A stretch of 43,108 nucleotides of DNA from a virus. Shown here in pieces: positions 32,565-33,431 of the stretch; the first letter of the stretch is position 1; every line of letters starts with the position of its first letter. The notes under the pieces were generated by a model that was not told where the DNA came from, did not search any database, and saw only the letters and a program-made list of their open reading frames with translations. A program made the position numbers and the translations under genes. The stretch is from IMG/VR virus record IMGVR_UViG_3300037071_001119, positions 1 to 43,108 of that record. The stretch is one strand, 5' to 3'.

Positions 32565-33431
32565 TCACGAGGGGCGGGGGTTTAGGCTGTTCAGAATCGC
32601 GCGACCGATCATTTCCGGGATTTGCGGGACGACGGCGTTTCCGAGGCTTCCAACTCGGTCCACCCGATTGGAAATCCCATAAGCCACTCGACCCATGCCG
32701 GGTTCAGCGCCCCATTGAGCTCTTCGGGCGTAACCATCGTCTTCAATTTCTCGCGCGAGCGGGAGCCGCCCCATTTGCACAGCGCCGTGCCACCCGTTGA
32801 CGTGACCTTCGTTGGTGTCGGCCATAGCTTCGCGACCATCCCCAGGTCGATATTGCGGCCGCGGTGTAATTCCTTCAACGCGCCCTCCGCCGTCCGGGTG
32901 GCCTTCGCTCCGTCCGAGGCTTTTGGGGTGGGCAACAATCCAGAGCCGATCCCTCTCATGAGGGGCGCCAACGGCGGAAGCTGGTATGCAGTGCCACTCC
33001 GCATCGTACCCGAGCGCGGCCAGGCCCCCGAGAACGGCATCCAACCCTCTAGAAAGCAACGCTCCGACGTTCTCCACGATGACGTATCGGGGTCGAAGTT
33101 CGCCAATAACGCGGGCATACTCAAACCATAGTCCGCTACGTTCGCCTTCCAGCCCAGCGCCCTGTCCGGCGATGCTGATGTCTTGGCATGGAAAGCCGCC
33201 GCAGATGACATCGACGGCAATTCCATCGGCAGCAAGTCGGCCGGCGGTAAGGGTTCGGATGTCGTCATAGCATGGCACCTCGGGCCAGTGTTTCGCCAGC
33301 ACGCGCCGGCAGAATGGATCGATCTCGCAAAAGGCGACCGTTTGGAAACCGGCCCGCTCAAACCCAAGGCTGAACCCGCCAATCCCTGAAAACAGGTCCA
33401 GCACCCTGAGCATCCCCCTATCTCCTGTCAT
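32565..33431 (-). CDS. DNA cytosine-C5 methyltransferase
   Basis: A 288-aa protein. Motif I is LDLFSGIGGFSLG (about residues 11-23), motif IV GGFPCQDIS with catalytic Cys 82, motif VI ENV (120-122), motif VIII HERDRLW and motif X LGNAVVPQ near the end. Before motif X stands EPGMGRVAYGISNRVDRVG, typical of phage enzymes. It likely protects phage DNA from host restriction, alongside the adenine methyltransferase at 1842. ATG 33431 overlaps the upstream stop. A second open frame covers most of the gene. Confidence 0.92.
   Translation of the reverse strand: MTGDRGMLRVLDLFSGIGGFSLGFERAGFQTVAFCEIDPFCRRVLAKHWPEVPCYDDIRTLTAGRLAADGIAVDVICGGFPCQDISIAGQGAGLEGERSGLWFEYARVIGELRPRYVIVENVGALLSRGLDAVLGGLAALGYDAEWHCIPASAVGAPHERDRLWIVAHPKSLGRSEGHPDGGGRVEGITPRPQYRPGDGREAMADTNEGHVNGWHGAVQMGRLPLAREIEDDGYARRAQWGAEPGMGRVAYGISNRVDRVGSLGNAVVPQIPEMIGRAILNSLNPRPS
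32609..33382 (-). CDS. Overprinted frame inside the cytosine methyltransferase gene
   Basis: A 257-codon frame, same strand, different frame from the methyltransferase. Its content is recognisable: FHAKTSASP is read from the catalytic PCQ motif region, then SSWRTSERCFLEGW, WPRSGTMRSGTAYQLPPL and, at the end, LNPAWVEWLMGFPIGWTELE. I recall these phrases in separate proteins that accompany phage cytosine methyltransferases, which suggests a real, conserved second gene. The start is uncertain; Met 39, 53 or 58 (about 33211) are alternatives. Function is unknown, perhaps a target-recognition or partner protein. GC-rich DNA often has long chance frames, so the call rests on the motifs. Confidence 0.5.
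   Translation of the reverse strand: MAGSALGLSGPVSKRSPFARSIHSAGACWRNTGPRCHAMTTSEPLPPADLLPMELPSMSSAAAFHAKTSASPDRALGWKANVADYGLSMPALLANFDPDTSSWRTSERCFLEGWMPFSGAWPRSGTMRSGTAYQLPPLAPLMRGIGSGLLPTPKASDGAKATRTAEGALKELHRGRNIDLGMVAKLWPTPTKVTSTGGTALCKWGGSRSREKLKTMVTPEELNGALNPAWVEWLMGFPIGWTELEASETPSSRKSRK

Follow-up and report, generated by a model that had tools for sequence, protein, structure and literature searches.

The cytosine methyltransferase locus of the viral record IMGVR_UViG_3300037071_001119 (IMG/VR) very probably encodes a two-chain DNA (cytosine-5) methyltransferase, with the second chain overprinted inside the first. The window, by which we mean the whole stretch of DNA analysed, is 43,108 bases long and also carries terminase, portal, major head protein, integrase and recombination genes. 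The product of the enzyme frame (frame 0) is called alpha here, and the product of the overlapping +1 frame is called beta. The features of the locus are as follows:

32565..33413, minus strand: alpha, a C5 cytosine methyltransferase of 282 aa (start ATG 33413, stop ending at 32565), with motifs I-VIII and X and without motif IX
33180..33197, minus strand: motif IV of alpha, GFPCQD, containing the catalytic Cys76; invariant among aligned homologues
32622..32645, minus strand: motif X of alpha, LGNAVVPQ, close to the beta stop; third positions are free again just downstream (0.615)
32609..33382, minus strand: +1 ORF of 257 codons with a TTG start at 33382, wholly within the alpha ORF
32609..33226, minus strand: beta, 205 aa if it starts at ATG 33226 or 200 aa if at ATG 33211, supported by the open +1 frame, codon shuffles, phrog_1008, synonymous constraint and upstream stops in homologues
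32939..33226, minus strand: N-terminal extension of beta (FHAKTS, SSWRTS, WPRSGTMRSG, QLPPLAP), dual coding with alpha motifs IV-VIII
32708..32938, minus strand: LPTPKASDG..WPTPT of beta, a candidate target-recognition region, overlapping the variable inter-domain segment of alpha
32657..32707, minus strand: motif IX of beta, LNPAWVEWLMGFPIGWT, matched by the motif-IX HMM; the same string is in frame 0 of locus L218

An enzyme chain and a second frame inside it

Alpha has the features of a C5 methyltransferase, with the PCQ catalytic loop, ENV, RxR and motifs I-VIII recognised from Pfam PF00145 and from invariant alignment columns, and its ATG at 33413 is also the start used by homologues. The match to PF00145 (E = 8e-45) covers only profile positions 2-166 of 324. 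PHROG family phrog_363 is matched over residues 1-275 (E = 5.5e-85), and motif X is conserved within the chain. For motif IX, an HMM gave no match in frame 0 of loci of the window type, and it did give a match in their +1 frame.

The original prediction described a 257-codon same-strand frame within the methyltransferase gene, and this frame is indeed present, with every phrase that had been quoted from it. WVEWLMGFP (32695-32669) does share its bases with alpha, where they encode residues 241-249, GRVAYGISN (32693-32667). The length of 257 codons stands for the mechanical ORF and not for the protein; it is an upper bound, with the likely start about 50 codons later, because stops in homologues and the onset of constraint place the start near alpha codons 60-70.

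Motif IX in one frame only

The motif-IX HMM was built from single-chain methyltransferases and run on three frames of 205 unique loci. Motif IX was found in the +1 frame in 175 of them, in frame 0 in 25, in the +2 frame in one and in no frame in four, and not a single locus (0/205) had it in both frame 0 and +1. Within the 175 nested or split loci, the median score was 29 bits in +1 and 0 in frame 0. Motif X was in frame 0 in 159 of these (the window type) and in +1 in 13 (the split type), and three had no recognisable copy. Frame 0 contains LNxxWVEWLMG in three near relatives (L218, L257 and L261), whose +1 frame is still an LPTPTASD-rich ORF without motif IX; L218 matches positions 1 to 319 of the 324 in PF00145, as against 2-166 for alpha of the window. 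These three phage loci look like intermediates.

A protein search with the alternate frame matched phrog_1008 ('DNA methyltransferase', E = 1.4e-30), which bears out the family accompanying phage methyltransferases that the original prediction had pointed to. The name of this family hides that its members are overprinted subunits without a catalytic domain. It mixes overprinted beta chains with the C-terminal parts of split enzymes, and it has no Pfam or NCBIfam model. Gene 50 of Streptomyces phage Samy (L171:1852-2601) is annotated 'related to phrog_1008', and the beta frame of Paenibacillus phage Rani is annotated 'g50 Internal gene'. The nested gene of Escherichia phage fTaEco01 bears the name 'Mte8', for which the papers searched gave no match. 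Using tblastn against phage genomes, the beta frame was found in phages of Mycobacterium, Paenibacillus, Synechococcus, Microcystis, Bacteroides, Porphyromonas, Escherichia and others. Copies are also present in genomes of many bacterial phyla, the nearest being that of Sphingomonas baiyangensis.

Sequence searches of Pfam, NCBIfam and the PDB with beta returned no model and no chain, so its link to motif IX was drawn from single-chain and fused relatives. A profile-profile comparison between beta and the C-termini of single-chain enzymes gave a probability of 98 (E = 4e-13). The AlphaFold model of one single-chain relative, L198, has a pLDDT of 90-97 in its motif IX-X region and aligns end to end with M.HhaI (Z = 22). 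Judged from the single-chain relatives, the profile-profile match and the alignment of the L198 model with M.HhaI, the conserved end of beta is identified as motif IX of a C5 methyltransferase. The AlphaFold model of beta alone had a pLDDT of 62, and a PDB search with it gave no match and no recognisable fold; the isolated subunit may not fold alone. A BFVD search with beta returned phage methylase-like entries with poor superposition.

Split, single-chain and fused relatives

The segments of beta are found in several other arrangements. Frame 0 contains motifs I-VIII only in Streptomyces phage Samy and in the Mycobacterium phages NiebruSaylor and TygerBlood; their +1 ORF contains LPTP modules, an EWMMGxPxGW segment and, in addition, a stretch of motif X (GNGV). 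The enzymes of Tweety and Propionibacterium phage B22 have the LPTP, motif IX and motif X segments in frame 0 together with motifs I-VIII, giving an ordinary single chain. The full length of Tweety gp72 is matched by phrog_363, and its last 140 residues match the C-terminal part of phrog_1008 (E = 4e-51). In the single-chain actinophage enzymes, the LPTP modules of beta sit between motifs VIII and IX.

Both parts can also be fused in a different order. A Vibrio parahaemolyticus plasmid enzyme has, in one frame, motifs I-VIII, motif X and then a segment ending LNPVFAECMLGYPENHT. A C-terminal beta-like segment was present in 31 plasmid records of Vibrio, Alteromonas and Aliivibrio, and the six further plasmid enzymes that were read all consist of alpha followed by a beta-like domain. 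At its motif-IX end the fused domain matches the beta profile with a probability of 95 and E = 2.7e-8 (shuffled columns, ≤0.9). Because the plasmid enzymes fuse both parts, the classic evidence for a joint function, alpha and beta would be expected to work together.

Since motif IX occurs in one frame only, and given the split and single-chain actinophage forms and the plasmid fusions, we strongly infer a subunit role for beta. It is most likely an obligate subunit of a two-chain methyltransferase, contributing motif IX and probably the target-recognition region. The recognition region is placed in beta because single-chain relatives have the equivalent segment between motifs VIII and IX and because alpha is relaxed over this stretch. 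Beta would thus most likely go beyond a protein that merely accompanies the methyltransferase and be the motif-IX part of the same enzyme. A real overprinted protein with a separate job, such as regulating or inhibiting the methyltransferase or counteracting restriction, would fit the conserved N-terminal extension, which has no counterpart in canonical C5 enzymes, and the AlphaFold model of beta without a recognisable fold. However, motif IX is in beta, absent from alpha and never duplicated, and the single-chain, split and C-terminally fused relatives place the same segments in the enzyme chain; we consider a separate job quite unlikely.

The fused and single-chain enzymes have features of their own. 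The megaplasmid C5 enzymes of Vibrio, Alteromonas and Aliivibrio (L341:1204-2448 and L423-L428) have the order I-VIII, X, recognition-like region, IX, which is a natural, circular-permutation-like single chain. In the single-chain actinophage enzymes L179-L192, several copies of an LLPTPxASDGxGG module lie between motifs VIII and IX, perhaps forming a modular, multi-specific target-recognition region. In the single-chain enzymes L175, L176 and L198, motif IX is in frame 0 and the N-terminal segment of beta is still open in +1; in the +1 frame of Tweety, for example, this segment reads SETLPTSGMTRSG..SLLPTPRAS. It may be vestigial or encode a short product of its own.

Selection on both frames

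Identical codons at identical residues were counted in 76 loci and compared with the expectation from the codon usage of each gene. The observed/expected ratio in alpha was 1.06 at codons 1-45 and 1.06-1.12 across codons 1-60, rose to 1.2-2.6 in codons 61-255, and was 1.25 at codons 256-270 and 0.99 at codons 271-282. Synonymous conservation therefore climbs where beta can begin and drops where beta ends. Mismatch at the third codon positions of frame 0 was 0.624 before the overlap, 0.468 in codons 64-160, 0.257 at codons 237-255 (motif IX) and 0.615 after the overlap. In the N-terminal extension of beta, which has conserved alignment columns, this third-position mismatch of alpha falls from 0.62 to 0.47. 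Constraint on both frames is confined to the overlap, as in an overprinted gene. Dual selection had been proposed in the original prediction from the family motifs in both frames, with codon-position substitution analysis as a way to check it, and in both the synonymous and the codon-position profiles the signal does appear and disappear at the boundaries of the +1 ORF. These profiles, as read from aligned sequences, demonstrate dual coding, with beta under protein-coding selection.

The segment between motifs VIII and IX behaves differently in the two frames. Frame 0 has no codon periodicity there (mismatch by codon position 0.66, 0.61 and 0.62), and the +1 alignment does (0.55, 0.55 and 0.66), with the third position the most variable. 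Pairwise protein similarity in this segment is Z = 3.9 in +1 vs. 0.85 in frame 0. From the codon-position mismatch and the frame-wise similarity, the overlap can be divided into a part that is truly dual coding, the stretch of alpha motifs IV-VIII, and a beta-dominated part between motifs VIII and IX, in which the constraint is on beta and alpha is for the most part a linker.

Start of beta

Stops upstream in the +1 frame of many homologues limit the start of beta to alpha codons ~60-70; in several homologues the limiting stops lie 7-17 codons before the catalytic cysteine of alpha. Synonymous constraint sets in near alpha codon 63-64, and an ATG in the +1 frame falls inside the allowed start interval in 67 of the 76 loci. 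A strong, uniform ribosome-binding site before the beta start was not found in these 76 loci. In the window, beta probably starts at ATG 33226 (205 aa) or at ATG 33211 (200 aa).

Programmed ribosomal frameshifting from alpha into +1 would yield an alpha-beta fusion and no separate beta. Alpha and beta do lie in overlapping frames of one mRNA, and in the split actinophage loci one shift would give the full enzyme. However, a shift after motif VIII cannot explain the N-terminal part of beta, since both frames are constrained across alpha codons 64-160, a shift near codon 60 would lose the catalytic motifs of alpha, and a single shift in a window-type locus would omit motif X. With an in-frame ATG at the expected place in most loci, we regard frameshifting as very unlikely. 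Because both frames are constrained upstream of any useful frameshift site, the two-chain reading would have beta translated separately, by internal initiation near alpha codon 63-68.

Length of the +1 frame compared with chance

Loci were collected twice from viral contigs, with the +1 protein as the seed of one collection and the methyltransferase frame alone as that of the other. The methyltransferase-seeded set comprised 78 loci, and 76 non-redundant homologues were used in the statistics. In the 78 loci the longest +1 stretch is mostly 190-340 codons (minimum 126), the +2 frame is usually open for only 30-110 codons, and NPxWVEWLMGFPxGWT or a variant stands near the +1 end in nearly all. 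Stops in the alternate frame of homologous loci, named in the original prediction as evidence against a second protein, are not the pattern seen, since nearly all 78 loci keep +1 open. An open +1 frame was seen across GC contents from 0.46 to 0.68.

As a null expectation, synonymous codons were permuted within each gene, keeping both the enzyme protein and the codon usage. The longest +1 ORF in the window is 267 codons, compared with a shuffle mean of 125, and 0/200 shuffles reach 267. Over the 76 non-redundant loci, the mean +1 ORF is 248 codons vs. 120 expected (p ≤ 0.05 in 92%), and the +2 ORF is no longer than the shuffle expectation. A held-out profile test of the real +1 frame against codon shuffles (z ~9) was dropped as frame-specific evidence because the +2 control was also high (z ~7); it detects DNA-level conservation. 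A purely passive origin of the long +1 ORF, from high GC and the conservation of the enzyme frame, is already refuted: long spurious ORFs are common in GC-rich genes and about half of the +1 profile score is kept after codon shuffling (132/295 bits), but +1 is also open at GC 0.46-0.50 and exceeds the shuffles in those 92% of loci, the constraint ends where beta ends, and the recognition-like region is conserved in +1 where it is not in frame 0.

A proposed two-chain enzyme and its known counterparts

In the two-chain enzyme that we propose, alpha would form the large domain, binding AdoMet and containing the PCQ motif with its catalytic cysteine, motifs VI and VIII, and the helix of motif X. 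Beta would provide part of the small domain, namely the LPTP region, probably for target recognition, and motif IX. The two chains would assemble into one enzyme complex, the LPTP region would set its specificity, and its use would probably be methylation of the phage's own DNA against host restriction. We also lean, by a little, towards a broader reading, that this is a large and old family of tailed-phage C5 enzymes in which the catalytic and recognition halves are read from the same bases, beta is a detachable specificity subunit (TRD and motif IX), and the recognition half has changed frame and position repeatedly, giving nested, split, single-chain and permuted fusion forms.

The nearest known system appears to be M.EcoHK31I, a two-polypeptide enzyme of specificity YGGCCR. 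Lee, Kam and Shaw reportedly found in 1995 that the coding sequence of its small chain is nested, in a different frame, in that of the large chain and that activity requires both; in the window, too, the small chain is in another frame within the large-chain gene. According to PMC3404938, the large subunit of M.EcoHK31I contains motifs I-VIII and X together with the predicted target-recognition domain, and the small polypeptide contributes motif IX. The division of motifs is, by description, that of the window, whereas the recognition-like region of the window is in beta; M.EcoHK31I also belongs to a restriction-modification system, and the window carries a phage gene. Because of the division into I-VIII plus X and IX, together with the frame arrangement reported for the prototype, the window is best filed, by analogy, as a phage-borne member of the M.EcoHK31I-type two-chain enzymes, with an unexpectedly wide phage distribution. 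The E. coli sequences searched contained no recognisable M.EcoHK31I gene; an E. coli plasmid dcm was considered as a candidate and rejected, since its motif IX is canonical and lies in the enzyme frame and its +1 frame is not open.

M.AquI (alpha/beta, CYCGRG) is likewise a C5 enzyme in two chains, split between motifs VIII and IX. Its beta chain contains motifs IX and X, whereas beta of the window contains IX only and stops before a motif X of its own. The AquI-like arrangement, with IX and X in +1, is that of the 13 split loci, mainly from actinophages, and not that of the window. A ShiLan-domain HNH gene also lies out of frame within a phage methylase (PMC11855218), but it is a mobile inserted homing endonuclease outside the enzyme and is unrelated to beta. 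In the open papers searched, no description of a phage-wide overprinted family was found. The loci collected here indicate that an arrangement known from one bacterial enzyme, M.EcoHK31I, is common to a large phage family.

An overlap of ~200 codons on the same strand, maintained whether GC is low or high and in phages infecting many hosts, is a strong case of overprinting among double-stranded DNA viruses, and it is unusual in that the two overprinted products seem to belong to a single enzyme. In automatic annotation, beta is overlooked or labelled 'DNA methyltransferase' or 'hypothetical', and alpha is called a complete enzyme despite the absent motif IX. Alpha cloned alone for methylome work could look falsely inactive. 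With nested, split, single-chain and C-terminally fused forms available as a series, the origin of the overprinted gene becomes testable, as a de novo gene or as an old domain displaced between frames.

Individual loci

In Propionibacterium phage B22 (L176:183-2282), an intein with Hint and LAGLIDADG domains is inserted at catalytic motif IV. In Mycobacterium phage Seabastian (L177:1194-1953), alpha consists of two annotated genes, the second reached through +1; alpha is intact in its relative Nitzel. In a prophage copy from E. coli strain PCP07014 (L340:1367-2128), stops interrupt both frames at one and the same position, and the copy is annotated as a pseudogene.
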